In this document: positions 5,878 through 53,489 of the stretch, piece after piece
Layout of the letters: the number at the start of each line of letters is the position of its first letter
Numbering within the stretch: position 1 is the stretch's first letter
NCBI RefSeq assembly: GCF_000154825.1
Contig: NZ_DS560017.1
Coordinates: 1-64,000, forward strand
DNA from: Anaerofustis stercorihominis DSM 17244
GTDB taxonomy: Bacteria; Bacillota; Clostridia; Eubacteriales; Anaerofustaceae
Length of the DNA stretch: 64,000 nucleotides
Direction: 5' to 3'
Translations under genes and position numbers: made by a program
The notes under the pieces: generated by a model
The model's input: the letters and a program-made list of their open reading frames with translations, nothing else
Told to the model about the DNA's origin: nothing
Database searches by the model: none

Positions 5878-5898
5878 AAATAACTTAAAGTTTATATA

Positions 5899-6042
5899 CT
5901 TATTAAATGAAAGGGAAGCAGGTTAGATTCCTGCACAGTCTGTGCTACTGTATTAGAAGAGTAAATATCAAAATGTCACTGTTGTGTAAGCGGGAAGACG
6001 ATATTTATGATGAAGCTTAAGTCAGGAGACCTATTTAATAAG
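5899..6042 (+). promoter_or_regulatory. Cobalamin riboswitch aptamer
   Basis: Conserved blocks GGGAAGCAGGT, ATTCCTGCACAG, GCTACTGT, CACTG, CGGGAAGACG and AAGTCAGGAGACC occur in order. They are closed by a perfect 10-bp P1 stem (CTTATTAAAT with ATTTAATAAG). This matches the B12-riboswitch class that represses in the presence of coenzyme B12. It lies between the S-component gene and the secreted alpha-toroid gene. Confidence 0.93.
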
Positions 6043-6110
6043 ACCTATAAACTCTACACAAGGATAGAGTAAGGTAAATGGCTGTAAATAGCTGTTATAT
6101 TTGACTACTC

Positions 6111-10302: not shown

Positions 10303-10347
10303 GGTATTAAAGTGATTGATAATTTAACTAAATTGGAGGTGTTAAAA

Positions 10348-10821
10348 TTGGAATTTACCAATGAAAAAGAAATTATGAATAAGTCAAAATTAGCACTGGA
10401 GCTTTACCTTCCGGTATTTTGGGCTACAAATAATTCCTTAAATGACATGTACGATTATGCTTTGGAAGTAGGTGAGGGGGATATGAAAAGGGCAAATGTG
10501 ATGTTTGAAATATTTGCGCCGGATAAACAAAAGGAAGATTTTTTAGATAACGTGGATAAGAATGAATATTCATCATTGATACTTTCTTCAATCCTTAGTG
10601 CTGTCGGGCAGCTTAGAGAGTATCCGAGATATGGAATGGATTATTATACTATATTAAATGATTTATACATAAGTGCAGATCATCTTTCGGGAGAGAGCAT
10701 AGCGGAAAAACTTAATATATCCAGAACTACATTTTATAAGAGGAAGAAAGAAGCTTTAAGATTGTTTTCTGTCTGTTTGTTTGGCTATAAGATTCCGGAA
10801 TTAAAAGGGTATTTATGGTAG
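10348..10821 (+). CDS. ArpU/sigma-like phage transcriptional regulator
   Basis: 157 residues. The TTG at 10348 is chosen because GGAGGTG lies 6 nt upstream; a GTG at 10312 has no ribosome site. The N-terminal two thirds is helical with no motif I recognise. The C-terminal part (SGESIAEKLNISRTTFYKRKK) is a helix-turn-helix of the sigma region 4/ArpU type found in late-gene activators of Firmicute phages. It opens the tail-gene locus and sits behind LexA-like boxes, so I infer it controls expression of that locus. Confidence 0.6.
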   Translation: MEFTNEKEIMNKSKLALELYLPVFWATNNSLNDMYDYALEVGEGDMKRANVMFEIFAPDKQKEDFLDNVDKNEYSSLILSSILSAVGQLREYPRYGMDYYTILNDLYISADHLSGESIAEKLNISRTTFYKRKKEALRLFSVCLFGYKIPELKGYLW

Positions 10822-10926
10822 GTTTAAATTTAGATTAATAATTTAATACTAAATAGGAACTATAATTAAACACTTGCTTTACTGTATGTGAACTGATATT
10901 TTGATAAAATTTTATTATAGGGATAG

Positions 10927-10955
10927 AGGACCTTTTCTTGGGTCCTTTTTTATTT
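10927..10955 (+). terminator. Terminator 1 of a tandem pair
   Basis: AGGACC, loop, GGTCCT with a seven-T run, about 105 nt after the regulator gene. Confidence 0.75.
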
Positions 10956-10975
10956 CTGTAAATAAAAGGCTTTAG

Positions 10976-11004
10976 GAGTCAAGGTTTTCCTTGGCTCTTT
11001 TTTT
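10976..11004 (+). terminator. Terminator 2 of a tandem pair
   Basis: GAGTCAAGG-TTTT-CCTTGGCTC followed by seven Ts. Two strong terminators in a row separate the regulator from the sigma-like gene. Confidence 0.8.
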
Positions 11005-11116: not shown

Positions 11117-11521
11117 ATGGATAAAAATATCAGAACACTATTAGTCAGAAATGAAAGAATAGAAGTAAGTGAGGCTGTGTATAAGGCATATTACAAAGAA
11201 AGAGAGCATGAAAAATATTTGGATAAAAAGAAAAGAGATAATGAGTATTCATATGAAGGAATGAAGGAAAAGGGAATCGTATTTGAATATAACGAAGGGC
11301 TTATAGAAATGTCTCCAGAAGAAAAACTACTAAAGGATATAGAAAAAGAACGTTTAAGAGAGGCTTTATCGGCTCTTAATAAAGATGAAATGTTTTTGAT
11401 TGATTTATATTACTTTGAAAATAAATCTGAAAGAGAGATTGCCGAAATATTTTCTTTGTCTCAGAAAGCTGTAAACAAAAGGAAAAAGAGGATACTGGAA
11501 AAGCTAAAAAGTATTTTGTAA
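11117..11521 (+). CDS. Sigma-70 region 4-like transcription factor
   Basis: 134 residues, charged and helical. The C-terminal 60 residues form a sigma region 4 helix-turn-helix (LNKDEMFLIDLYYFENKSER, EIAEIFSLSQKAVNKRKKRI). No clear region 2 is seen, so it may be a region-4-only activator of phage late genes rather than a full sigma factor. AAGGAG precedes the ATG. A TGACTTT about 50 nt upstream could pair with AAAGTCA, which overlaps the start codon. Confidence 0.7.
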   Translation: MDKNIRTLLVRNERIEVSEAVYKAYYKEREHEKYLDKKKRDNEYSYEGMKEKGIVFEYNEGLIEMSPEEKLLKDIEKERLREALSALNKDEMFLIDLYYFENKSEREIAEIFSLSQKAVNKRKKRILEKLKSIL

Positions 11522-11744
11522 TAAAAAAACTCATAAAGGTAACCTACAGAGACTTTTATTAAAAACAAACCTATAAATCTATTTATTAATTCAACTAAAT
11601 TAAATTTTTAGTTTTCGATATGTAAAGGATAAAGAATTATCAAACTTTAAAAATCTTTACAATATTTAATCTAACAATTTATAAAAAGAAATTATTTTTT
11701 ATTTTCTAACTTTGGAATGTTTAAAGTATGTAAAAAACGATTGA

Positions 11745-12215
11745 GAAGTAGGAGTATGCGGGGCGCGGAATCTTGCGAAGCAAGGCGTAGTGCCCCATAG
11801 GTATTTACTGATATAAATGCTTTTATATTAGTATCAAAAATCAGTAACTATATTAAATCATTAAAATAATTTTTAAAAAGCGGTACTTAAATCAAAGAAA
11901 AATTCCTTAAAGATATGAGGAAGGGAAAACGGACTTAACGATGATTGAAAAGTGAATATAAACAAATCAGATACGTTCTTTTATAAAAGAGCCGAGGTGC
12001 AAGTGCGCTTGCGATAAAGGTAACTGTTTACAACACTACTGCACAAAATAAAAGAAATATCTTTTAAGGCGACGAGGTTATAAAAGGGATAATGATACTT
12101 ACGCATAGCAGGGTCACACCACGGTGCGTCCCGGATAATGTCGGGGAGGTGGAATTCCTATGAAGCAGACTTACTGCTGTTTGGTTTGTTTCGGTAAGTG
12201 ATTTATATAAAAACC
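11745..12215 (+). ncRNA. Candidate large structured non-coding RNA
   Basis: About 470 nt without a credible gene and visibly richer in G and C than the surroundings. Many stems can be drawn. GGGGC/GCCCC (11760-11796) encloses CTTGC-GAA-GCAAG. ACTGATATAAA (11807-11817) pairs with TTTATATTAGT (11822-11832). ACGCA pairs with TGCGT (12101-12129), CCCG with CGGG (12130-12145), and AGCAG with CTGCT (12164-12178). Position in a phage-derived locus recalls the large ornate RNAs (GOLLD, ROOL), but I cannot assign it to either. Ends are approximate. Confidence 0.5.
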
Positions 12216-12232
12216 TTAATAAGGAGGTAACT

Positions 12233-12397
12233 ATGATAGACGTTAAGTGTATTTCGGGGGATCCCGAATATATTGAAAGTGAGTTAGCTTCTCTGATTTC
12301 TGACGGCTATGAAGTTATGGATATGACGACAAATCTATATCCCTCTACTTCCGGTTACAGAAAAGAGACGACTATTTATTTAAAGAAAACAATTTAG
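12233..12397 (+). CDS. Small protein of unknown function, 54 aa
   Basis: ATG follows AAGGAGG by 5 nt. The protein begins MIDVKCISGDPEYIES and alternates charged and hydrophobic residues in a strand-helix-strand pattern (SLISDGYEVMD, TTIYLKK). This resembles small DUF4177-like phage or host proteins. Its reading frame directly follows the candidate structured RNA. Confidence 0.6.
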   Translation: MIDVKCISGDPEYIESELASLISDGYEVMDMTTNLYPSTSGYRKETTIYLKKTI

Positions 12398-12562
12398 TTA
12401 TGCTAAAAATGGGGTAAATAAGAAAGAAAAAAACAACATTTATTATCTGTTCTTAAACTTATTTATTCCTATTTTATATAGCGCAGAATTCAAGGCGATA
12501 CTTGGATAAAAAAAGGATTACGCTGAATGACAGCGAAAACAAACAGAAAGGAGGGACAAAGT

Positions 12563-12928
12563 TTGGTAAGAGAGAGTGATGGTATTCTTGTAAATGAAAA
12601 TCCCGTGCAGTCCAAAGTACTCATGATACCGAAGTTCAGATTTGACGAAGTAAATGAGAAGTATAAAAAATATAAAAAAGATGTAGTTTTACTGATGGAC
12701 AAGCTGGATGAAAAAGACAAGGAAAACTCTAAGCTTTTGAATGATATAAAGAGTATCAAAAAAGCTTATGACAATGCCCTTTTAAACTTAAAGGTAAAGG
12801 AGACATTTGTGGAAGGCGGAATATTCAAGGAACAATATGAAACCATAATACCAAAAATGACCTGCAGAGAAGATGAAAAGCTCGATTTGGCAAAGGCTAT
12901 AGTAGAGCTGATAAAACAAACAAAATAA
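12563..12928 (+). CDS. Tail-locus protein with coiled coil, unknown function
   Basis: 121 residues from a TTG start 7 nt after AAGGAGGG; an ATG at 12527 lacks a ribosome site. Residues about 30-90 are Lys/Glu/Asp-rich and predicted to be a coiled coil (VNEKYKKYKKDVVLLMDKLD). It lies 22 nt before the tail tube gene, so it may be the first structural or assembly gene of the tail operon. Confidence 0.55.
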   Translation: MVRESDGILVNENPVQSKVLMIPKFRFDEVNEKYKKYKKDVVLLMDKLDEKDKENSKLLNDIKSIKKAYDNALLNLKVKETFVEGGIFKEQYETIIPKMTCREDEKLDLAKAIVELIKQTK

Positions 12929-12950
12929 AGATTTAAAGGAGAAAATAACA

Positions 12951-13343
12951 ATGGCAATAAGTACACAAGGAACAATTTTAAATATTACAGGAACTAAAGG
13001 AGAAACAGCTATCAATATCGACGTTGCAATCAAATCATTCCCTGATTTAGGAGCTGCACCGGCAGCTATCGAAGTAACATGTCTTTCGGATGATTCACAA
13101 AAATTCATCCCCGGTATCAAAGGTATGGCAGCTATGGAATTCGTTGCTAACTATGATGCATCTGTATTCGAACAATTAGTGGGAGCAGAAGGCTTAGATT
13201 TAACTTATAAAGTAAACTTCGGCGAAACTGAATATTCATTCAGCGGTAAACACAATGCTTTGATCGTTGGCGCAGGTCTAAATGCGGCAGTAGATATGAA
13301 AGTTGTTGTACTTCCGGGTTCTAAAATCACAAAAGTAGCTTAA
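12951..13343 (+). CDS. Phage major tail tube protein
   Basis: 130 residues, beginning MAISTQGTILNITGT, strand-rich, with a long-loop segment and a repeated hydrophobic/polar pattern typical of siphovirus tail tube proteins. The reading as tail tube rests on size, fold pattern and position directly upstream of the tail chaperone frameshift pair. No sheath gene is present, consistent with a non-contractile tail. Confidence 0.72.
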   Translation: MAISTQGTILNITGTKGETAINIDVAIKSFPDLGAAPAAIEVTCLSDDSQKFIPGIKGMAAMEFVANYDASVFEQLVGAEGLDLTYKVNFGETEYSFSGKHNALIVGAGLNAAVDMKVVVLPGSKITKVA

Positions 13344-13435
13344 TTACATAAATATGAGGAGGGGTTACCCCTCCTAAGTAGCAGAAATCAAAAGTATTTT
13401 ATAAAATATTTTTTAATATGAAAGGAAAATTAAAA

Positions 13436-13726
13436 ATGATCATTAATAATAAAAATTATACTATACCCGAACTTAATTTTAATACTATATGTACTTTAGA
13501 GGAAATGGGTATTTCTCTAACGGATATGGACAAAAAAATATTATCTACAGTAAGGGGTTTTTTAGGCCTTGCAATGAACGGGGACTATGAAAAGGCAGGA
13601 AAAGAAATGGAAGAACATCTTGAAAACGGCGGCTCTTTGGACGAAATGCTGGAAGAGATAAATAAGGCGGTAGAAGAAAGCGGTTTTTTTCAAGCTCTCA
13701 ACAAGAACCAGAAACAGAGCTCTTAA
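13436..13726 (+). CDS. Tail assembly chaperone, short (gpG-like) form
   Basis: 96 residues from the ATG at 13436 (AAAGGA 9 nt upstream); an in-frame ATG at 13418 is possible. It is acidic and helical, with a size and position matching gpG-type chaperones that coat the tape measure during tail assembly. Near its 3' end the mRNA carries a run of seven Ts in slippery phase, giving a longer -1 product. Confidence 0.75.
   Translation: MIINNKNYTIPELNFNTICTLEEMGISLTDMDKKILSTVRGFLGLAMNGDYEKAGKEMEEHLENGGSLDEMLEEINKAVEESGFFQALNKNQKQSS
13684..13690 (+). promoter_or_regulatory. Programmed -1 frameshift site (T TTT TTT)
   Basis: In the chaperone frame the codons read GGT TTT TTT CAA, giving the slippery heptamer T-TTT-TTT. 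After a -1 slip the frame is open from 13690 through the whole downstream reading frame to 14127. This is the conserved G/GT arrangement of tailed phages. Confidence 0.8.
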
Positions 13727-14127
13727 AAGAGCAAGAGACAGAAGACGTAAAAAGCATAAAAGAAAAGGTAAAATATAATTCTTTCAGCGAACTGATAAAT
13801 GAATTTTATCTTCCTAATGCATTGATGCTTGGTGTGGATTATGACTTATTTTGGAGGCTTACTCCAAAAAGATTGCTGCCTTTTATCAAAGCTTATGAAG
13901 ATAAAGAAAAAAGAGAAATCGAAAAGAATAATTATTTATTTTGGATAAACGGGATTTATGTTTCTCATGCGGTTGCAAACGTACTTGCAGAAAATACAAA
14001 ATATCCGGATAAACCATTTCCTTTATTTGAAAATAAAGATATTGAAGAAAGTAAAGCTGAGGAAGCCGAGCTTTTCGATGCATATGCGGCAATGTTTAAT
14101 AAAGAATTCGAAGAGAAAACCAAGTAA
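13690..14127 (+). CDS. Tail assembly chaperone C-terminal extension (T part of gpG-T)
   Basis: The -1 frame encodes 145 residues, fused after the first 85 of the short form (total about 230). The internal ATG at 13822 has no ribosome site, and the frame is open 44 codons upstream of it back to the slip site. This supports frameshift fusion rather than a separate gene. Residues such as DLFWRLTPKRLLPFIKAYED are helical; in phages this part recruits the tail tube. Confidence 0.75.
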   Translation, partial: SSSQQEPETELLKEQETEDVKSIKEKVKYNSFSELINEFYLPNALMLGVDYDLFWRLTPKRLLPFIKAYEDKEKREIEKNNYLFWINGIYVSHAVANVLAENTKYPDKPFPLFENKDIEESKAEEAELFDAYAAMFNKEFEEKTK

Positions 14128-14154
14128 AATGAGTTTTCTCTTTTTATTATACAC

Positions 14155-14284
14155 TTCTTCGATTTGAAGAATTACATCAGTAAACCTTATATTATTCTTC
14201 ATTTCGAAGAAAAGTAAAAAATGCTCCTATTCTTCGTTTTGAAGAAAATATTCGTCTTGGTAAAATATTCTTCAAATCGAAGAA
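14155..14284. repeat. Four copies of the palindrome TTCTTC-N5-GAAGAA
   Basis: Copies at 14155-14171, 14195-14211, 14230-14246 and 14268-14284, start-to-start 40, 35 and 38 bp. Spacers are GATTT, ATTTC, GTTTT and AAATC. Copy 4 is almost exactly the reverse complement of copy 1. They lie in the gap between convergent genes. Confidence 0.85.
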
Positions 14285-14347
14285 TTATACCCCATACATA
14301 ATCTTTAAACATTGAGGCTTATGTATGCGGTATAAACCGCAAAAAAG

Positions 14348-14372
14348 AAAGACAACTTTTGTTGTCTTTTTT
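14348..14372. terminator. Terminator inside the tail gene run
   Basis: AAAGACAAC-TTTT-GTTGTCTTT with a T tract. It should end transcription after the chaperone genes. A second hairpin (GCGGT-ATAA-ACCGC) precedes it. Confidence 0.8.
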
Positions 14373-14437
14373 AATTACAAATTTTAGAAAGGGGTGGTTA
14401 AGTTGAAAGGTTAAGGTTTTGAGGTAAATGAGTAAAA

Positions 14438-14929
14438 TTATAAATCGGTAATTTCGGTTTCATTCCCGTTTTGTATTTTTGAGGATACAAAATCAAAGAA
14501 ATCACATATTTTACAATAACCTTTATTACGAACTCTTAATAAAGATGAAACACCTGTTGAATAGAGGAATTTAATAAATTTCTTCTCATTATCTGATTTA
14601 TAGTTTATAACGCAGTATTTATCCTGAGATAATGCACTTCTGCTTATAGGGTTTAATGGTGTACTTTCAATATTATTTTTTACCGTTTTTTCGATAGAAG
14701 TTATTTTACTATAATCCAAATTAAAAGTTTTCTTTAAATTTGGATTAGTCGTTTCAAAAGTTATTTTATCTTCGTAAGCAAAAACTATTATTTCTACACC
14801 TTGAGAAACAGGTAAAGAGCCACTATCATATAGACCTTCTAATGCACTTGATGCACCTCTATTTGATAATTCCACTTCTCTCCAGTAAGTAGTCGTAAAC
14901 ATTGAATATTTTTTTTTATTTTTACTCAT
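14438..14929 (-). CDS. Inverted gene within the tail locus, unknown (possible PH-like fold)
   Basis: 163 residues on the strand opposite all tail genes, between the chaperone and tape-measure genes. The protein starts MSKNKKKYSMFTTTYWREVE. It has alternating strands (VEIIVFAYEDKITFETT, CVINYKSDNEKKFIKFL) and a C-terminal helix with CKICDFF. The pattern could fit a PH/GRAM-like barrel, but I do not recognise a family. Its orientation and the adjacent terminator suggest an inserted accessory gene. An immunity, regulatory or defence role is only a guess. Confidence 0.65.
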   Translation of the reverse strand: MSKNKKKYSMFTTTYWREVELSNRGASSALEGLYDSGSLPVSQGVEIIVFAYEDKITFETTNPNLKKTFNLDYSKITSIEKTVKNNIESTPLNPISRSALSQDKYCVINYKSDNEKKFIKFLYSTGVSSLLRVRNKGYCKICDFFDFVSSKIQNGNETEITDL

Positions 14930-14998
14930 GATAGCACCTCAACATTAATAATTAAATAAATTATAACACAAAAAAATTTAAAAGAAAGGAAATTTAGT

Positions 14999-16510
14999 AT
15001 GGAACAATTTGAATTAACTATTGATGATAATGTTGTTAAAACATTGTCTTCTATAAAAGAAATGCTTAACGGCATTTTGGAAACGACAAAAGAAATACAA
15101 AAAGAATTATCGAATTCTTTTGATACATCTTTTTTTGAGGATTTCGCAGTTGCCTTAGGTACAGTATCTACATCAATGTCGATTATGCAATCTTTAGGCT
15201 TTTCTGATTTCTTAATAAGTATTGGTGATGGAATGCGTGCTATTTTAGGATCCTCAGGTCCATTAACAGGTGTTCTTGGCGGATTATCGGACGCATTTGC
15301 GGGACTCGGTGAGGGGGCTGCAGTTCTTGCGGGACCTCTTTGTGTTGTACTTGCTATCGTCGCGGCACTTGGAGCGGGATTTTTATATGCAATGCAGACA
15401 AGTGAGGAATTCAGAGAAAAGGTTGCTGATGTATTCGAGCCACTCTCCGAGAGCTTAACAAAGGTTTGGGAAGAAGATATCTCTCCAGTTATTGATTCCG
15501 TCGTAGAATCTTTAACAAAATTTTATGAAAAGCATTTAAAACCTATGATAGATGGAATAATGGAGTTATTTGATCAGCTCGGATTATTTCTTGGGGAAGC
15601 GGCACTTCTTCTTATCGAACCGTTTTTACCTATAATTCAAGGTATGGTTGAATTTTGCGGAACATATTTGGCTCCGTTGGTAGAGGGGGTTATAGGTATA
15701 TTTTTAACATTACTTGGTTTTGTGACAGATAACATAACGTCGATTGCAGGAGTACTTAGTGGATTTATCAAAATCCTCAGAGGACTTTTTAACGGAGATA
15801 CGGAACTTATAATGGAAGGGTTTAAAGAGATATTCGATAATACATTAGGAAGAGTTTGGAAAGGTATTCAAAATTGGTACAATAAACATATTGCAGGCTT
15901 TTTTGGAGCTAAAAAATGGGACGGTACATTTAAAAATATCGGACCATGTTTAAGAGATGCGTTTGATAAGGCTCTTAAATATGTAAGAAAAGCGATTTCT
16001 GATTGGTACAATAAACATATAGCTCCTTGGTTTACGGTTGAAAGATGGGCGAAACTTGCCCGAGATGGAGTAAGGGGGTTAGCTTCCGCACTTCATTTAC
16101 CTAATATAAGACTTAATGTTACGTGGGGAAGTTCTCCCGACTGGCTATATGATGCTGCTAAGCTTATTGGTTTAAGAGGTGTGCCTCATATTGATTTTGA
16201 TATATCTTACAGGGCAATGGGCGGTTTCGTCGATGCAGGTCAGATGTTCATCGCCCGTGAAGCCGGTCCGGAACTTGTAGGAACAATGGGAAGCAGGACT
16301 GCGGTAATGAATAACAATCAAATCGTTGACAGTGTTTCCAGAGGTGTTTACGATGCTGTTGCATCGGCACTCGGTTCGGGCGGTATAGGCGGAGACTGGA
16401 CTATACAGATCGTGGATGAAAACGGAAGCGTAAAAGCGGAAGATATCATTACGGCAATCGAAAGAAGAAACAGAAGAGACGGCAAGACCGTCATTGCATT
16501 GGGGGTGTAG
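14999..16510 (+). CDS. Tail tape measure protein
   Basis: 503 residues. There is a helical N-terminus, a Gly/Ala-rich hydrophobic stretch (LSDAFAGLGEGAAVLAGPL, about residues 95-130) and long helical, membrane-like segments (about 180-260). Two copies of a W-YNKHI-type motif follow (QNWYNKHIAGFFGAKKWD and SDWYNKHIAPWFTVERWA). A C-terminal Gly-rich tail contains GGFVDAGQMFIAREAGPELV, seen in many Firmicute tape measures. It is short for a tape measure; at roughly 1.5 angstrom per residue the tail would be near 75 nm. AAAGGAAA precedes the ATG. Confidence 0.85.
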   Translation: MEQFELTIDDNVVKTLSSIKEMLNGILETTKEIQKELSNSFDTSFFEDFAVALGTVSTSMSIMQSLGFSDFLISIGDGMRAILGSSGPLTGVLGGLSDAFAGLGEGAAVLAGPLCVVLAIVAALGAGFLYAMQTSEEFREKVADVFEPLSESLTKVWEEDISPVIDSVVESLTKFYEKHLKPMIDGIMELFDQLGLFLGEAALLLIEPFLPIIQGMVEFCGTYLAPLVEGVIGIFLTLLGFVTDNITSIAGVLSGFIKILRGLFNGDTELIMEGFKEIFDNTLGRVWKGIQNWYNKHIAGFFGAKKWDGTFKNIGPCLRDAFDKALKYVRKAISDWYNKHIAPWFTVERWAKLARDGVRGLASALHLPNIRLNVTWGSSPDWLYDAAKLIGLRGVPHIDFDISYRAMGGFVDAGQMFIAREAGPELVGTMGSRTAVMNNNQIVDSVSRGVYDAVASALGSGGIGGDWTIQIVDENGSVKAEDIITAIERRNRRDGKTVIALGV

Positions 16511-16514
16511 ATAA

Positions 16515-17090
16515 ATGGAAAAATTAACAATGAAATATGATGAATTGACGAGCAGAAGTTTGACGGAACTATGTAATCCTCTTCCTTATATAATCACAAA
16601 TGTATATGACAGTACCGAACAGGACGAAGAGGGGAATGATATAAGAGTCAAGTATGCGGAGTATATCGACCTTGGAGTATGTCCCGCAAGCTACAGCTGT
16701 GCACTCAAAGAACTTCTTTCTTCCGACAGCGGAAGGACGGAGGATACTACATACAACAAAATGAGGCTGGGTAAGTACATTGAAATAGCCATTTCTTACA
16801 GGTCTATGAACAGCGATAATTTAGCTATTCTTTTAAATAACTTTTCCGATGAATATGTAACGGTTTGTTATTTTGACCCGAGAAAAAATTCCTATAGGAT
16901 AGATGAATTTTATCTCGGAGAAACCAGTGTACCTTTATATAACGGTAAGATGGGATTTTGGGATAGTTTTTCACTGACTTTGGCTCAAAGGAAAGCTGAG
17001 GAGGATGAAATACTTACCGAAGAAGAAATTCCCGAAGCAGCTGAAAATCCGAATGAAGAAGTCATTATACAGCCCGGTGAGGAGGTATAA
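16515..17090 (+). CDS. Distal tail-type protein
   Basis: 191 residues, 5 nt after the tape measure gene, with GGGGGTG as ribosome site. The segment YVTVCYFDPRKNSYRIDEFY followed by GETSVPLY resembles tail-tip proteins encoded between tape measure and hub in Firmicute siphophages. The C-terminus is acidic (EEDEILTEEEIPEA). The position corresponds to Dit. Confidence 0.65.
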   Translation: MEKLTMKYDELTSRSLTELCNPLPYIITNVYDSTEQDEEGNDIRVKYAEYIDLGVCPASYSCALKELLSSDSGRTEDTTYNKMRLGKYIEIAISYRSMNSDNLAILLNNFSDEYVTVCYFDPRKNSYRIDEFYLGETSVPLYNGKMGFWDSFSLTLAQRKAEEDEILTEEEIPEAAENPNEEVIIQPGEEV

Positions 17091-17092
17091 TT

Positions 17093-19210
17093 ATGAGTTT
17101 TAATATTTCAAAAAAAGCTTATGATGCTGTTATGAGCTCCACTCGTCAGGGAGTTGAAGTATCATATCAGCTTGCTGATGAGCCGACAGTCGATAATACT
17201 CCTTTGGATATTTTATTCGGTGAAGATGGACAAGCCGATGAAAATCCCGAACAAGTCATTAACCGTATTACAGAGGAGAATATAATCGCGGGTTCATTTT
17301 CCATAGACAGATATACCGCAAGCGGAGATAATGTGGAAATCGGCAGTGCCGTAGCCGCGGAACTTAAAATGACTTTGGATAACCACACTGGTATATACGA
17401 TGATGTCAATTTCGCAGGGGCTACACTTAGAGTTAATGTTTCCGTTAAAAGAGAAGACGGACTTATTTCATACATACCTATGGGGATATTTATCGTAGAT
17501 GAACAAATCAAAAATCAGACTACGATATCTCTTACCGCACTTGATTATATGGCTGCATTTGATAAGGTATTCGATTTCAAGGATTATGAACAGGGAATGA
17601 GTATTCAGCAAATTTTATTTGCAATATATAACCAGTGTATGATAAAAGATAATGCGGAGAGCAGTTTGGGAGACTTTTTAGATCTTCCCAATATGGATTA
17701 TATCCCTTATGATTTGCCTCAGAGCGAAAGTCTTACTTGTAGACAAATCCTGCAGTGGATCTGTGAAATAACGGGTACATGTGCTTATATGGACGGGGAT
17801 GGTGAGTTACAGTTAGGATTTTATGAAGACTTTTTAATCCCCTCTACGGAAGATAAATTTGTATTAAGACCGAATATGCGTTATTCAAGCGAATACGATA
17901 AGAGCATTTTGGTACTTGATAAAATAATCGTTCAAAGTAAAGACGGTAATAATTCTGAGCCTGCTGTTTTTGAAAACGAATATGAAAACTGTGATTTGTC
18001 TTATTTATCGGCAAAAGGAATAAAATCTTCATCTTTGGTATATACGATTTCGGGAAATGACCTTATATCAGACCCAACGACTGCAGAAGGCGAAGAAACG
18101 GAAGAAGATAACTCGGAAAATACCGGGGATACATCGGAGGGTACAGGTGAAGACAATACAAATACGGATGATACAAATACTTCTGATATGCCTCCCGAAC
18201 TTGAAATACCCGATGATACCGACCCTTCCATATCTGCCGAATCGGATACACCGATTGAAGGTGGAAGCGGTGAAGGCGACGGTACTACGGAAGAGGTAAC
18301 GGAATATAAAAACAAAGCCAAAGAAATTGCAGCTGGATTAAAGGGAATGAAGGTACTTAGGTATCTTCCTTTTAAAGCAACGACTATTTCCATGCCGTTT
18401 TTATGGCCATTATGTAGAATAATATTCGAGGATAATCATGGAAATCTTATCGAGAGTATCATAACTCATCATACATTTAAATTGAATGGTTCTTCGACTA
18501 TAGAGGCAAAAGGTGTCAGTGAGCAAAAAAAAGGATATGCTTCGTCAAATCCTCTTACAAAACACGAAGCTAATATAATTGATAAGATAAAAGATGAAAT
18601 CAAATATGAAATCACTTCGAGAGAAAAAGATGTTTTAAAACTTAATAAAGTTGCTAATGCTATGTTCGGTTTATATAACACGGTTGATTTACAGGACGAC
18701 GGAAGCAGCATATTATATTTTCATGATCAGGAGAAGCTTAATGACAGTAAAATTGTCTATATGATGAATCAAGACGGTTTTTTCTGGACTGATGAATATG
18801 ATAAAAATGAACATATTTGGCAGAACGGTGCGACATCCGACGGTTCTTTTGTGACTACCTATTTAAGTACTGTCGGACTGAATGCAAGCTGGATAAATGT
18901 GGAGGGAAATGCGCCCAATGCTCCGATGAGAGAAAATATCAATAAAAATATTTTATTGGCAGACTCTAAAGACTCCTCTGAGGGTAAGGAAGATATAAAT
19001 GCTATTTCCGATAAAACAGCAAATATATATCTTGCCAACGGAAAAATAAATTTCAGTACTGATGATTATTTGCCTCCTACAAGTATTTATTCAGGGGGGC
19101 TTAGGACAAATGAAATCAATGCAATAAGTTCGGTCAACATAGGTAAATTCATATTTGAGTCGGGTAATGACGGAAATTTAACGATTAAATATCAAGGAGG
19201 TAATAATTAA
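17093..19210 (+). CDS. Tail hub / tail-associated protein
   Basis: 705 residues, GAGGAGG ribosome site. The N-terminal 320 residues resemble phage hub (Tal/gp44-like) domains: GIYDDVNFAGATLRVNV, YIPMGIFIVDEQ, TISLTALDYMAAFD, CRQILQWICEITGTCAYMDG. Residues about 325-395 are a long acidic Thr/Asp/Glu-rich stretch, after which the hub-like part resumes (KEIAAGLKGMKVLRYLPF). The C-terminal portion is fibre-like. It probably forms the tail tip and links to the fibre encoded next. The stop codon overlaps the next start (TAATG). Confidence 0.75.
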   Translation: MSFNISKKAYDAVMSSTRQGVEVSYQLADEPTVDNTPLDILFGEDGQADENPEQVINRITEENIIAGSFSIDRYTASGDNVEIGSAVAAELKMTLDNHTGIYDDVNFAGATLRVNVSVKREDGLISYIPMGIFIVDEQIKNQTTISLTALDYMAAFDKVFDFKDYEQGMSIQQILFAIYNQCMIKDNAESSLGDFLDLPNMDYIPYDLPQSESLTCRQILQWICEITGTCAYMDGDGELQLGFYEDFLIPSTEDKFVLRPNMRYSSEYDKSILVLDKIIVQSKDGNNSEPAVFENEYENCDLSYLSAKGIKSSSLVYTISGNDLISDPTTAEGEETEEDNSENTGDTSEGTGEDNTNTDDTNTSDMPPELEIPDDTDPSISAESDTPIEGGSGEGDGTTEEVTEYKNKAKEIAAGLKGMKVLRYLPFKATTISMPFLWPLCRIIFEDNHGNLIESIITHHTFKLNGSSTIEAKGVSEQKKGYASSNPLTKHEANIIDKIKDEIKYEITSREKDVLKLNKVANAMFGLYNTVDLQDDGSSILYFHDQEKLNDSKIVYMMNQDGFFWTDEYDKNEHIWQNGATSDGSFVTTYLSTVGLNASWINVEGNAPNAPMRENINKNILLADSKDSSEGKEDINAISDKTANIYLANGKINFSTDDYLPPTSIYSGGLRTNEINAISSVNIGKFIFESGNDGNLTIKYQGGNN

Positions 19211-21174
19211 TGGCAACTGTTAAAGGTAATTATTCCGGAGGAAGCAGTTATGATCTATATGTTTCCTGCGTAACCAATTCACAAAATATAGAAAAAAATA
19301 CTTCAAATGTGACTTTTACGTTTGGAATGTACAAAGCAGGTTCTAATTCACAAAGTTATAATCTAAATTCACATACATTTACTTATAGTATAAATGGAAC
19401 TAAATATACAAAATCCGTATCATTTGATTTTAGAAGTAAAGGTACGGGAACATATAACAAATTGTTTTCTGTAACGTTAAATATAACCCATGGTTCTGAC
19501 GGTAAAAAATCCGTTTCGGTAAGTGCATCTCATCCCACAGGCATTAGTTTAGGTACGGGAAAAGTTTCAACTTCTTTTGCGCTTAAAACCATACCTAGGG
19601 CGTCTGCACCTACCGTCAGCCCGACATCACAAAGCTTGGGAAATTCTATAACAATAAATACGAACCGCAAAAGTACAAGTTTTACACATAAAGTAGTTTG
19701 TACAATTGGCAGTTATTCCAAAACAATAAGCAGTGTTGGAGGAAGTACATCCTTTTCACTGGATAAAGCTATTGCAAATCAACTGCCAAATGCGACATCT
19801 GGAAAAGTCAATGTAACTTGTACTACTTATAGCGGAAGCACTAACGTTGGAAGTAAAACAACAAGCTTTACTGTCACGGTTCCCAATAATAACGATTTTA
19901 AGCCTAAAAAACCTACTAATACATTTGTCGGGAATAAATTATGTCAGGGGCTTTATGTTCAAAATGTCAGTATTTTAAATACTACGATTTCGTCAGTTGG
20001 AATTTATAATAGTACTATAAAAAACTATTCACTCAATATTGGTGGTAAAACTTACTCTTCGACGTCTTCTAAATTCTCGTCAAGTGCTCTTCCATCATCC
20101 GGGGAAGTAGCCATAACTTCTACCGTTAAGGATTCAAGAGGATACTCCAATACATCTGACGCAAGTAAGATAACTGTTTATCCTTATTCGGTTCCGACCG
20201 TTACGAATTTTAGTGCAGTAAGAACTGATGACAACGGAAGTTCTTTGAACATTTCTTTTGATATGGCTTTAAGTGCCGTTAACAATAAAAATAATCTTAA
20301 ATTTGATTTGTATTCGAAGAAATGCAGTGAAGACGGTGAACCTGCACATATTCATAGCGGGAATATAGTTCTTTTGGATGAAGGCGAATTGCCTATTGGC
20401 GATAATGTGTTATCTTATTTCAATACTGAAAGCAGAGTGACAAAACCGATTTCGGTTGAAGTTCCTTCTCTAACGGGTATTCCTTTTTCTTCCGATGAAA
20501 GCTTTGATATAATTGCTAAGTTCAGCGATTTTAATCATACTTTTGAACAAAGTTTTATACTGCAAACAAAATTTGTTACAGTGGATTTTAAGGCAGGCGG
20601 AAAAGGTGTTGCAATAGGTAAATATTCTGAAGAAGATGCTTTTGAAGTCGATATCCCTGCAGTTTTTCATAAATCCGTAGAAGGACTTGGGCTGATTGAC
20701 TCTATGTATCCGGTCGGTTCTATTTATCAAACGACAAATGCGAGTTTCGATCCTAATACTGAATGGGGAGGTAAATGGCGTAAATTAGAAGGTGTATTTT
20801 TATTAGGTTCAAATAGCAGTTATAAAATCAGTAGTGATATAAAAGATGGCGGTGAGGCTAGCCATAAACTGACAGTTTCAGAAATGCCTTCTCATAATCA
20901 TCCTATTACAGTAAATATTAGAAATGCTAATGGTAATATGGGGACTTTCTTCTGTGCCGGAACAACAGCATGGGATTCTGCATATTTCCAAGGAGATATT
21001 ACTTTAAAAAGAAATTATAGTGTATCAAATACTACACCGGATAATGCATGGAAAAAATTAAGTTGGCATTTTAGTCATGATCATTCTGCTTCATCGGATT
21101 CGATCGGCGGAAGTGGCGTTCATAATAACATGCCGCCATATAAAGTTGTTAATATTTGGGAAAGAATAGAATAG
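19210..21174 (+). CDS. Tail fibre, DUF859-like with C-terminal collar domain
   Basis: 654 residues. The Ser/Thr-rich N-terminal two thirds is all-strand and resembles the DUF859 siphophage structural family (GGSSYDLYVSCVTNSQNIEK, ITHGSDGKKSVSVSASHPTG). Around residue 495, SMYPVGSIYQTTNASFDPNT begins a collar/gp10-C-like tip domain that ends HNNMPPYKVVNIWERIE. The His-rich SEMPSHNHPI and FSHDHS segments are typical metal-binding tips. Host recognition is the likely role. Confidence 0.8.
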   Translation: MATVKGNYSGGSSYDLYVSCVTNSQNIEKNTSNVTFTFGMYKAGSNSQSYNLNSHTFTYSINGTKYTKSVSFDFRSKGTGTYNKLFSVTLNITHGSDGKKSVSVSASHPTGISLGTGKVSTSFALKTIPRASAPTVSPTSQSLGNSITINTNRKSTSFTHKVVCTIGSYSKTISSVGGSTSFSLDKAIANQLPNATSGKVNVTCTTYSGSTNVGSKTTSFTVTVPNNNDFKPKKPTNTFVGNKLCQGLYVQNVSILNTTISSVGIYNSTIKNYSLNIGGKTYSSTSSKFSSSALPSSGEVAITSTVKDSRGYSNTSDASKITVYPYSVPTVTNFSAVRTDDNGSSLNISFDMALSAVNNKNNLKFDLYSKKCSEDGEPAHIHSGNIVLLDEGELPIGDNVLSYFNTESRVTKPISVEVPSLTGIPFSSDESFDIIAKFSDFNHTFEQSFILQTKFVTVDFKAGGKGVAIGKYSEEDAFEVDIPAVFHKSVEGLGLIDSMYPVGSIYQTTNASFDPNTEWGGKWRKLEGVFLLGSNSSYKISSDIKDGGEASHKLTVSEMPSHNHPITVNIRNANGNMGTFFCAGTTAWDSAYFQGDITLKRNYSVSNTTPDNAWKKLSWHFSHDHSASSDSIGGSGVHNNMPPYKVVNIWERIE

Positions 21175-21216
21175 TGTCAAATTTAATATATTAGTAATAC
21201 GTTTATAACAATTATT

Positions 21217-21260
21217 AGCTCATTAAAGATATTTATATTTTTAATGAGCTTTTTTATTTT
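21217..21260 (+). terminator. Terminator after the fibre gene
   Basis: AGCTCATTAAA and TTTAATGAGCT form an 11-bp stem followed by a T-rich run. It separates the structural genes from the lysis genes. Confidence 0.8.
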
Positions 21261-21414
21261 AGTTATTATGAAAAAGATTATAAGAATACTTTGATATTTA
21301 ACTATTTTAATAATTTAGAAGACCTTAATTATTTTATAAAAAGGGGTTAAGAAATAACTGAAATATAAATGTATATTGAACATTATAAGATGCGGAAAGG
21401 AGGTAGATATAGAA

Positions 21415-21765
21415 ATGACGGCTGAAAGTACGATAGATCTATCGCTTTTACTGTCGCTATTTACAATAATATTCGTAGGCCTTACATATTACAGAAGTTC
21501 AAAGAAAGATACTTCAAATGATGTTAAAGAACAGATGAAGATGAGTGTGAAGCTGGATACTATTTGTAATACTACGAATGAAACCAGAAGCGATATAAAG
21601 AGTATAAATAAACAGCTTACGGATTTGATGGAGACTCAGATACTGCAGGGGCAGGAACTTAAGACCATGTGGAGACGGGTAGATGAGCACAGCGAGAAAC
21701 TAAGCGAACATGAAGAGAAAATAATAAATTTGGAAAAGGAGAATATAAAAAATGAAGAAAATTGA
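21415..21765 (+). CDS. XhlA-like holin-associated membrane protein
   Basis: 116 residues from the ATG at 21415, 8-9 nt after AAAGGAGGT (an upstream in-frame ATG at 21376 lacks a site). One N-terminal transmembrane helix (LSLLLSLFTIIFVGLTYY) is followed by a long coiled coil (about residues 30-116). The arrangement resembles haemolysin XhlA proteins, which sit next to holin and lysin genes. It overlaps the holin gene by 14 nt. Confidence 0.65.
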   Translation: MTAESTIDLSLLLSLFTIIFVGLTYYRSSKKDTSNDVKEQMKMSVKLDTICNTTNETRSDIKSINKQLTDLMETQILQGQELKTMWRRVDEHSEKLSEHEEKIINLEKENIKNEEN

Positions 21766-22105
21766 TTTAAAGGGAATAACTGCGGATACTATTGCAAGAA
21801 TGATTTTTTTACTTGTAAGTATGATAAACGGTGCGGCGGCAATGTTTGGTTTTACGAAGTTGGATATAGATGAAAATACTATATATACAGTAGTGACAGG
21901 TGTTTCGGTTATCGTATCGGCGGTGATAGGTTTTTGGAAGAACAACTCTTTTACATCTGCTGCGATCGAAGGTGATAACTTAAAAAACGCACTTAAAAGC
22001 GGAGATGTGACTAAAGAAGATTTGAAAGCTGTGGAAGAAGCAGAGGAAGATGATATGGATTACTTTTTAAGTGAAGAAGAACTTAAAGAAATGGATATGG
22101 ACTAA
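21752..22105 (+). CDS. Phage holin (SPP1/phi LC3-type)
   Basis: 117 residues. ARMIFLLVSMINGAAAMFG is helix 1 and TIYTVVTGVSVIVSAVIGFW is helix 2, followed by KNNSFTSAAIEGDN, the hallmark of this holin family. The C-terminal tail is strongly acidic. Holins permeabilise the membrane so the endolysin reaches the wall. Confidence 0.9.
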   Translation: MKKIDLKGITADTIARMIFLLVSMINGAAAMFGFTKLDIDENTIYTVVTGVSVIVSAVIGFWKNNSFTSAAIEGDNLKNALKSGDVTKEDLKAVEEAEEDDMDYFLSEEELKEMDMD

Positions 22106-22117
22106 GGAGGGATTTGT

Positions 22118-22846
22118 ATGGCAAATTCAGCGAGTAAAGTGCTAAAAATAGCGTTATCGGAGGTTGGGTACATAGAGAAAAAATCAAATAAGAGCTTGGA
22201 CAGCAAGACAGCCAATAAAGGTGATAAAAACTATACCAAATATAACAGGGATATGAAAAAGATAAGAGGTGCTGGTACTTTAAATGACTATTGGTGCGCT
22301 AATTTTGTCTCTTGGTGTTTTTATAAAGCTTTTGGTAAAAATACAGGCAAAAAGGTAATGTTGGGGTATTCAAATTATGTACCGACCATATACAGTAATT
22401 TCAGCAAGGCAAAAAGAATAAGCAAAAGCCCTAAAAAAGGGGATATAATCATTTTCGGTACTAACTCCCATGTAGGGCTTGTTTATGATGTTAAAGGAAA
22501 TTATGTTTATACTGTTGAAGGGAATACGAGTTCTAGGGATTTTGATTCCAATGGAGGTGCGGTTTGTAAGAAAAAGTATCATAAGACTAATTCTTGGATA
22601 AAATGCTACTGTAGACCTAAGTATACCGTTCCGGTGAGTGAATATCCGTTAATCAGAAAAGGGAGTAAAGGTTCTTATGTTAAGAAAGCTCAAACTCAAC
22701 TAAATAAAAAAGGCGGATATAAATTAAAAGTTGACGGGATATTTGGGAGTGCTACTCTAAGTGCGGTCAAGAAATTCCAAAAGAAAAATAAACTTGTCGT
22801 TGATGGTATCGTTGGAGCTAAGACTTGGAGTAAGTTATATAAATAA
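22118..22846 (+). CDS. Endolysin: CHAP-like hydrolase plus peptidoglycan-binding domain
   Basis: 242 residues. The N-terminal catalytic domain (about 1-165) carries DYWCANFVSWCF (Cys nucleophile), TNSHVGLVYDV (catalytic His) and VEGNTSSRDF, matching CHAP-type Cys/His amidases or peptidases. The C-terminal domain (about 172-242, RKGSKGSYVKKAQTQLNKKG, DGIFGSATLSAVKKFQKKN) is a PG_binding_1 module. There is no signal peptide, so release depends on the holin. AAGGAGGG precedes the ATG. Confidence 0.88.
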   Translation: MANSASKVLKIALSEVGYIEKKSNKSLDSKTANKGDKNYTKYNRDMKKIRGAGTLNDYWCANFVSWCFYKAFGKNTGKKVMLGYSNYVPTIYSNFSKAKRISKSPKKGDIIIFGTNSHVGLVYDVKGNYVYTVEGNTSSRDFDSNGGAVCKKKYHKTNSWIKCYCRPKYTVPVSEYPLIRKGSKGSYVKKAQTQLNKKGGYKLKVDGIFGSATLSAVKKFQKKNKLVVDGIVGAKTWSKLYK

Positions 22847-22886
22847 TTAGTGTGTATATTATTAATTTCAATTGGTTGAATATATA

Positions 22887-22930
22887 AATAAAAAATAGAG
22901 GATGTATTAAATCTCTATTTTTTATTTATT
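22887..22930 (+). terminator. Terminator after the lysis genes
   Basis: AAAAATAGAG and CTCTATTTTT with T-rich flank. Confidence 0.7.
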
Positions 22931-23045
22931 CTCATACAAAAACATATTAAATTGATAATGAATTTTAAAATCAATTTTAATGTATTATTTATTTAAAGGA
23001 TTATACTGACATGTCAAAGGATCTGATTTTAAGGAGGAATATATT

Positions 23046-24698
23046 ATGGAAGAAAAAAATAATGATGTAATGTCAGCAACTGAAATATTTATGTTAAAAT
23101 CTTTGTATGATATGAATGATAATAATATTGTTGATAATGCAGAAAAGGTAAATGGTCATACAGTTGAAGTTAATGTGCCGGAGGATGCCGTTTTTACGGA
23201 TACTAAGTATGATATAGCTACGGAAAGCATATCCGGACTAATGAGCAGTACTGATAAAGCAAAGTTAAATGGTATAAGTGAAAGAGCAACCAAAGTAGAT
23301 GTAATTGATAATATAACGAGTACCAGCTTTGAAGATGCTCTTTCTGCAAAACAGGGTAAGCTATTAAACGATAGAGTATCAAATCTTGAGACTTTACCTA
23401 AGGGCGATATGTTTAAGTCTATATATGATGCAAACAATAATGGTATTGTAGATTTAGCCGAAAATGCACAAAAGATAAATGGGTTCACTGTAGAAAAAGC
23501 TGTACCCTCAGATGCAAAATTCACTGATACTACATATGAAAAATCAAGTTCGGTTATAGATGGATTGATGAGCAAAGAGGATAAAGTTAAATTAGATGGA
23601 ATAAGCGAAAATGCAAATAGTATTTCGATTGCTGATAATCTCATAAGTTCCAGTGCCGATGAAGCTTTATCCGCAAAACAAGGTAAGTTATTAAATGACA
23701 GACTTACTGATGTTGAAGCGGCTTCTTGTGGAGATATGTTTAAATCCGTATATGATACAAATGATGACGGAAAAGTTGATAAATCGGATTATGCAGATAA
23801 TGCGGGAACGGTTAATGGGTTTACCATTGAAAAGTCTGTGCCTTCAGATGCAGTTTTTACAGATACTAAGTATTCTGTCGCAACTACAAGTTCAAATGGA
23901 TTATTGTCAAGTGCCGATAAACAAAAAATAGATAGATTAAATTTGGACACTTCTAAAAATTTAACTGTAGCAAACGCTACGGCTTCATATTTTAAAACAG
24001 ATACCAAACCCGGTGGATTGATAAGTTCTGATGGGCTTAGATTAATAACTCGTACATCGGCAGGAAATGTTGCTGTAGGTCAGGATGGGTTAAGCGGTGG
24101 GACTCATGCCGTAAGTTTATATGCGGGAGGAAAAATCAATCTTTGTATCAATAATTCCGGATCAGCCGCAAATGCCAGCAATATTGAATATGTTTATGCT
24201 GACAGTAAATATCTTTTCCGTAACAGAGCAAATGGGACTTGCTATTTAGGTTCGGCTTCTTATAGATGGAATACCATTTATTCAAAAACCGGTTCTGTTT
24301 CCACATCTGATAAAAGAAAGAAATATGATATAAACTCAATAATTAAGGATGAGAAAATAGAAAAATTCTTTGAAGGTTTAAGACCTGTTTCTTATAGATC
24401 TGTTGAAGGGGACGGTCATAGAACTCATTATGGGTTTATTGCTCAAGAAATTGAAGAAAACATCGAAAATGCGGGACTTAAATATAGTGATTTTGCTCCT
24501 ATAGTAAAAACTCCTGTAGATAAGGATGGAGAAGAACTTGATTATTATAATGAGTCTGACAGAGAAAAAATCGTTGATTATGAATATGGACTTAGATATG
24601 AAGAATTCATTTCAATAAATACAATGATGATACAAAAGCTTATGAATGAAGTAAAAGAACTCAAAGAAGAAATAAAAGAGCTTAAAAATAATAAATAG
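23046..24698 (+). CDS. Tail fibre/spike with 108-aa repeats and S74 chaperone domain
   Basis: 550 residues, ribosome site AAGGAGGAAT. Residues about 14-330 hold two and a half repeats of roughly 108 aa, each starting like MFKSIYDANNNGIVD and containing FTVEKAVPSDAKFTDT and ALSAKQGKLLNDR. A knob-like region (about 320-420) follows. The C-terminus has STSDKRKKYDINSII and HRTHYGFIAQEIEE, the peptidase S74 intramolecular chaperone, which trimerises fibres and then cleaves itself off. A coiled coil ends the protein. It is transcribed separately from the main tail operon, after the lysis genes. Confidence 0.85.
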   Translation: MEEKNNDVMSATEIFMLKSLYDMNDNNIVDNAEKVNGHTVEVNVPEDAVFTDTKYDIATESISGLMSSTDKAKLNGISERATKVDVIDNITSTSFEDALSAKQGKLLNDRVSNLETLPKGDMFKSIYDANNNGIVDLAENAQKINGFTVEKAVPSDAKFTDTTYEKSSSVIDGLMSKEDKVKLDGISENANSISIADNLISSSADEALSAKQGKLLNDRLTDVEAASCGDMFKSVYDTNDDGKVDKSDYADNAGTVNGFTIEKSVPSDAVFTDTKYSVATTSSNGLLSSADKQKIDRLNLDTSKNLTVANATASYFKTDTKPGGLISSDGLRLITRTSAGNVAVGQDGLSGGTHAVSLYAGGKINLCINNSGSAANASNIEYVYADSKYLFRNRANGTCYLGSASYRWNTIYSKTGSVSTSDKRKKYDINSIIKDEKIEKFFEGLRPVSYRSVEGDGHRTHYGFIAQEIEENIENAGLKYSDFAPIVKTPVDKDGEELDYYNESDREKIVDYEYGLRYEEFISINTMMIQKLMNEVKELKEEIKELKNNK

Positions 24699-24708
24699 AT
24701 AAAAATAA

Positions 24709-24742
24709 AAAAGAGAGGAGCATTTCTCCTCTCTTTTTATTT
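24709..24742. terminator. Bidirectional terminator
   Basis: AAAAGAGAGGAG-CATTT-CTCCTCTCTTTT, a 12-bp stem between convergent genes. It marks the right end of the tail locus. Confidence 0.88.
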
Positions 24743-53340: not shown

Positions 53341-53369
53341 TTGACAAATCGTTGATTATACATTAAAAT
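53341..53369 (+). promoter_or_regulatory. Sigma-A promoter of the riboswitch transcript
   Basis: TTGACA, 17-nt spacer, TAAAAT. Confidence 0.75.
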
Positions 53370-53380
53370 ACTTGATTGGA

Positions 53381-53448
53381 GAGATTATATAAATTCATGA
53401 TTGGATGAATGTTTCTACCAACTGCCGTAACAGTTGACTATAATGCTC
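53381..53448 (+). promoter_or_regulatory. Purine riboswitch, guanine-type
   Basis: P1 is GAGATTA with TAATGCTC (one bulge). P2 is ATTCAT-GATTGG-ATGAAT. J2/3 is GTTTCTACC, P3 is AACTG-CCGTAA-CAGTT and J3/1 is GACTAT. The loop GG and CC can make the L2-L3 contact. The J3/1 position equivalent to base 74 is C (GACTAT, not GATTAT), which in known members selects guanine or hypoxanthine. Confidence 0.88.
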
Positions 53449-53489
53449 AATGGGAGTAGTCTACATGTTTACAAGGCAGTTATTTTTTT
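53420..53489 (+). terminator. Riboswitch-linked alternative terminator
   Basis: AACTGCC (53420-53426, the P3 5' strand) can pair with GGCAGTT (53475-53481), which is followed by A and seven Ts. Forming it needs P3 to open. GACTA/TAGTC and CTC/GAG can pair in between. Confidence 0.6.

Follow-up and report, generated by a model that had tools for sequence, protein, structure and literature searches.

A pemK-family RNA, putatively a canT-type processive antiterminator, in the leader of a tailocin-like operon of Anaerofustis stercorihominis

The leader of a tailocin-like operon in Anaerofustis stercorihominis DSM 17244 contains an RNA of the pemK family (Rfam RF02913), which, judging from its sequence, probably acts in cis as a processive antiterminator of the canT/pemK type. 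The locus lies in a 64,000-nt stretch of contig NZ_DS560017.1 (positions 1 to 64,000, referred to here as the window), and it is best read as one where a canT-type antiterminator would have been co-opted to transcribe a tailocin operon. The RNA proper spans approximately 11940-12205, about 260 nt including its newly recognised parts. It is situated between a gene for a sigma-like factor and the structural genes of the tail, exactly where a preliminary description of 11745-12215 had placed it. The features of the locus are as follows.

10925-10999, plus strand: two hairpins resembling intrinsic terminators, upstream of the sigma gene (the second -15.6 kcal/mol, z -5.28)
11117-11521, plus strand: sigma-70 region-4 protein of 134 aa (Pfam Sigma70_r4_2, E 7e-10)
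11760-11796, plus strand: dispersed hairpin repeat outside the RNA, with about 40 other partial matches in the same genome
11868-11928, plus strand: block common to the sister locus that lacks the RNA (blastn against L011, 79% over 63 nt)
11940-11958, plus strand: degenerate boxA-like GATGATTGAAAAGTGAATA at the 5′ border of the RNA module, differing from the family consensus at 4 positions
11971-11996, plus strand: CAGATACGTTCTTTTATAAAAGAGCC, like GAATACGTTTCGATAAGAAAAGAGCC at the same place in Tn916 (sequence comparison)
12049-12066, plus strand: hairpin P0, beyond the Rfam model, predicted in nearly all members and covarying
12068-12076, plus strand: conserved single-stranded GGCGACGAG (family form GCGATGAC), from the family alignment
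12089-12163, plus strand: pemK core AUAAUGAUACUU and helices P1-P3 (RF02913 match, covariation)
12089-12091, plus strand: ATA, the first bases of the pemK core, equivalent of the Tn916 canT(S3) site
12164-12178, plus strand: hairpin P4 (AGCAG-ACTTA-CTGCT), beyond the Rfam model (hairpin scan, alignment, covariation)
12233-12397, plus strand: first ORF past the RNA, 54 aa (KCISGDPEYIESEL...), conserved in the sister genome G001 (L011:1605-1829)
12527-24698, plus strand: tail and lysis operon, about 12 kb (PHROGs, Pfam, ORF list)
21217-21250, plus strand: intrinsic terminator between the tail and lysis genes (-16.0 kcal/mol, z -6.08)
24708-24738, plus strand: operon-end terminator, usable on both strands (-17.8 kcal/mol, z -6.46)

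A permissive Rfam covariance search of 11500-12560, with E up to 5, matched RF02913 at 12089-12163 over the full model, positions 1-61, with 55.6 bits and E 4.6e-9 against a cut-off of 34.8, the only other hit being a sub-threshold one to dinG. This places the RNA in an existing family and not in the new class that had been thought possible. In Rfam, RF02913 is a 61-position model of type ‘Cis-reg’ with no stated function, and pemK has been listed beside RAGATH-18 as another RNA near defence genes (PMC11061315). Our own extended model, R1, was built from 41 sequences that include the window and Tn916-type copies, so that its scores for these two (87.6 bits, E 3e-18, over 12039-12195 in the window; 91.8 bits for the Tn916-type copy) are not independent. 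Helix P2 is shortened in the window, with gaps at 2/5 of its columns, while P1 and P3 are kept, the invariant bases are all in place and the core, P0 and P4 are preserved. Against phage records, the window RNA gave no match in blastn. A self-splicing intron was ruled out, with no Rfam intron family matched in 11500-12560 at E up to 5, and an IStron/IS607 omega-RNA was dropped, as no transposase directly adjoins the RNA in the window, nor does one as a rule in its relatives.

The covariation analysis that had been proposed for this region was run on an alignment of 41 diverse members with their flanks. RNAalifold gave almost no structure on a badly gapped alignment, and column-pair counts were used to assess pairing. 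Across the helices, 82.7% of cells are paired, compared with 59.8% in shuffled data, and the covariation score is 0.655 versus 0.257 when shuffled, with 0 of 500 shuffles scoring as high. Sliding the helix partners by one to three columns lowers this score to 0.13-0.19. Pairing in helices P1-P3 is 95-100% over the 41 sequences, and both strands of these helices show changes; P0 (next to the conserved GCGATGAC) and P4 (right after the core) covary too, neither being part of the Rfam model. With this strong compensatory covariation in the family, and with no ORF longer than 41 aa in 11600-12232, the earlier claims of a structured RNA in a phage-tail locus and of a region free of reading frames are borne out.

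The stretch originally delimited, 11745-12215, is a composite of a 5′ hairpin repeat and the separate RNA rather than one unit. Its GC content of 0.367 compares with 0.179 immediately upstream and 0.331 for the whole window, in agreement with the G/C-richer island first reported, and 11807-11935 within it is AT-rich (GC 0.233). Of the 470-nt island with many nested stems, the folding held up, in that 99 of 100 shuffles fold less well than the whole 486 nt (z -2.79), but its unity did not, with a dispersed repeat lying inside and the conserved RNA accounting for only some 260 nt. This repeat, GGGGCGCGGAATCTTGCGAAGCAAGGCGTAGTGCCCC at 11760-11796, is a GC-rich hairpin dispersed in an AT-rich genome, resembling REP or MITE sequences; several matches are also found in a sister species (G002), and it is absent at the syntenic locus of G001. 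The repeat contributes much of the apparent structure and is the main cause of the earlier impression of an ornate RNA. Folded alone, 11940-12205 is barely better than shuffles (z -1.43), so that free energy did not reveal the RNA; it was recognised through homology and covariation.

The functional reading of the RNA draws on canT of Tn916, an antiterminator that acts in cis, processively and in one orientation only, is most likely an RNA, is needed for transfer-gene expression after excision and works on heterologous terminators (Wirachman and Grossman, 2024, PMC11658703). Two mutants locate its activity: canT(S3), an inactivating change of ATA to TGC starting at nucleotide 283 past the orf8 stop codon, and Delta162, an inactive deletion of nucleotides 229-390 after that stop (PMC11658703). 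In the Tn916-type element of pCF10 (L197), RF02913 matches 2323-2423 (55.0 bits, E 3.2e-7), placing the pemK match between orf8, which ends at 2040, and xis, which starts at 2501. The S3 site is L197:2323-2325, where the letters read ATA, the opening triplet of the pemK match, and Delta162 is L197:2269-2430, a deletion that removes the whole pemK core. Because S3 and Delta162 both map onto the pemK match, the pemK core would be an essential part of the demonstrated antiterminator, and from these coordinates we infer that canT of Tn916 contains a pemK RNA. This link is stated in no paper found, the literature searched being that outside the original pemK description, and a text search of PMC11658703 returned no mention of Rfam. 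The RNA is also found on an E. faecium plasmid, flanked by a Tn916-like sigma/HTH pair on one side and by xis/int on the other. The Tn916-type element also carries, before its sigma gene, Rfam SQ2397 (L197:874-1103), an HTH-factor cis-regulator.

In the window, the RNA is followed by the 54-aa ORF, whose product has no Pfam or PHROG match, and then by genes for a tail tube, tape measure, further tail proteins, holin, endolysin and tail fibre (PHROGs and Pfam, main ORFs). No head, terminase or integrase genes were seen (PHROGs and Pfam on the main ORFs; ORF list for 10-48 kb), and host-type genes flank the tail cluster. Judged from these genes, the operon has an F-type tailocin layout. The sigma-70 region-4 protein is the likely activator of the operon, with the block at 11868-11928 as a candidate promoter region that it may serve, while the hairpins at 10925-10999 would insulate the locus from the preceding host gene. 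Just before these two terminators and the sigma gene, an HTH/DUF1492-like gene (10312-10821) is a second candidate regulator. Within the tail operon, a 163-aa ORF on the opposite strand (14438-14929, minus strand) lies head-on as a cargo-like insertion, with a minus-strand terminator-like hairpin behind it at 14369-14348. Elsewhere in the window, cobalamin (5878-6044) and purine (53365-53460) riboswitch aptamers are present and ordinary.

The mechanism that we propose would begin with transcription from a point past the sigma-like gene, for which the sigma-like factor is probably responsible. The nascent RNA would first expose the boxA-like element, and would then fold the pemK core, with its invariant AUAAUGAUACU strand and helices P0-P4. 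Once folded, the RNA would remain with RNA polymerase and confer terminator resistance. In effect, expression of the roughly 12 kb of tail, holin, endolysin and fibre genes, also of those past 21217-21250, would be confined to transcripts that began at the proper promoter. The terminator at 21217-21250, proposed as the target of antitermination, favours the antiterminator reading by its presence. That it is the only strong intrinsic terminator within the operon counts against this reading, as do the degenerate boxA, the shortened P2, the sister locus lacking the RNA, and the missing integrase or recombinase.

A boxA-like GTTCTTTGAMAAYTGAATA lies about 135-270 nt upstream of the core in most family members, and a match with three or fewer mismatches to the 19-base boxA-like consensus is present in 29 of 47 members as compared with 0 of 940 simulated sequences. 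For the window, where GATGATTGAAAAGTGAATA is followed by TACGTT (motif TACNTT), the joint match was equalled by 1 of 4000 simulated sequences. In rRNA operons, boxA sites for rRNA antitermination are expected upstream of 16S and in the post-16S spacer, and sequences similar to the boxA-like element occur at these positions in three of the four same-class genomes looked at. This resemblance suggests a NusB/S10-type contribution to the action of the RNA. The G001 leader, which is without the pemK core, keeps a boxA-like sequence with 4 mismatches.

Across the sampled Clostridia, RF02913 is found in 122 of 391 genomes (119 above the cut-off), frequently in several copies per genome. The pemK motif itself reportedly originates with Weinberg et al. 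2017. The ORF upstream of the RNA matches sigma-70 region 4 in nine of ten tested loci (the window included; one match weak), and the distance from the sigma-like gene to the RNA in relatives is commonly about 220-300 nt. Downstream, a tyrosine integrase or serine recombinase is encoded in 13 of approximately 17 regions tested, and other downstream genes in relatives are of the ParA/ParB/SpaA type. Contigs of a viral collection that carry the RNA agree with this layout in their ORF sizes, the downstream ORF being mostly one of 520-570 aa, a comparison of sizes and not of domains. In two such contigs, a c-di-GMP-I riboswitch aptamer (L221:2237-2324 and L225:25-119) is found close to the sigma-like gene, some 1.1-1.3 kb before the pemK RNA, making second-messenger control of such elements possible.

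Related copies of the tail locus differ in whether they hold the RNA. It is present in L212/L228, from a closely related strain among the viral-collection contigs, while the sister locus in G001 (L011) agrees in its sigma gene, small ORF and tail genes, with neither the 11760-11796 repeat nor the pemK core found there by blastn and R1 search. The block shared with the sister was located by local blastn, as MAFFT with the sister locus alone misplaced it. One lineage of the tail locus has therefore either acquired the RNA or lost it, and the sister, with the same sigma gene and tail locus but no such RNA, shows that an operon of this kind can do without it.

The absence from the sister also speaks for the main rival to the antiterminator reading, that of a relic. 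On this view a conjugative or mobilisable element once inserted next to the sigma gene, and the RNA is what remains of its right end, with no function left in the tail operon. We regard this as unlikely. At almost every other locus looked at, the RNA is part of the end of an element that has an integrase or recombinase, and a decayed copy would also agree with the degenerate boxA-like part in the window; however, the core is intact, as are P0, P4 and the invariant bases, there is no integrase remnant, and the RNA is found exactly at the leader position after a co-oriented sigma gene. The RNA in L212 is nearly unchanged as well, with 1 difference from the window in 500 nt (11700-12200) versus 15 in 190 nt just upstream, but this is only suggestive of selection because the neighbouring coding DNA is little diverged too. 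We give still less credence, and very little overall, to a local cis-regulatory switch, in which an attenuator or riboswitch would act on the next gene only. The Rfam type ‘Cis-reg’ and the leader position are in keeping with such a switch, but a T-rich octamer 15-60 nt after the RNA is present in only 11 of 47 members, with no directly following terminator as a rule; downstream genes vary widely, from integrases and serine recombinases to ParA and tail genes; and canT is processive and acts on heterologous terminators (PMC11658703). As for GOLLD, ROOL or another large ornate RNA class, first suggested by the size and phage-tail setting of the region, the chance is negligible as far as Rfam models reach, since 11500-12560 matches none of GOLLD, ROOL and OLE at E up to 5 and has a clear match to RF02913.

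Taking the antiterminator reading beyond the window, we lean, if only slightly, towards the view that the whole pemK family consists of cis-acting, rRNA-like (boxA/Nus-assisted) processive antiterminators that couple long mobile-element operons to their own promoter, and that at least one lineage moved such an RNA from conjugative elements into a tailocin operon. This would provide a testable function for an orphan RNA family found in about one third of the sampled Clostridia genomes. The only point mutation known to abolish canT activity lies in the most conserved strand of pemK, and the covariation model supplies the structure that the canT authors left open (PMC11658703). The boxA-like element, in turn, suggests how the RNA may recruit Nus factors. 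As far as our survey reached, the window is the first case of such an RNA leading a phage-tail operon.

Several known RNAs provide points of comparison. Relative to the RF02913 model, members carry the additional P0, P4, GCGATGAC strand and upstream boxA-like element, and the window member shares the core sequence and P1-P3 with the family, yet precedes a tail operon and not an integrase. The dinG RNA (RF03082) has a weak overlap with the window RNA, with AAUGAUACUU and the first hairpins in common, but the window scores only 24.1 bits, well under the cut-off of 46.9. The put RNA of HK022, the EAR RNA of the Bacillus eps operon and conAn2 of pLS20 would by hypothesis be alike in kind, as leader RNAs for processive antitermination of a long operon, although the window region has no above-threshold Rfam match to any family except pemK. 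As a relative, conAn2 was set aside, with no pemK match (E up to 1) or R1 match in pLS20 1-50000. For canT of Tn916, antitermination has been measured; for the window RNA it is predicted. In Tn916, canT is followed by the xis and int genes of a conjugative element, and reads into the integrase and, after excision and circularisation, into the transfer operon; the window locus is without an integrase, and the RNA is followed instead by tail, holin, endolysin and fibre genes. Both have a sigma-like gene upstream (in the window, on the same strand), both stand as the leader of a long operon, and the window RNA has the same core as canT, including the S3-sensitive ATA at 12089-12091.
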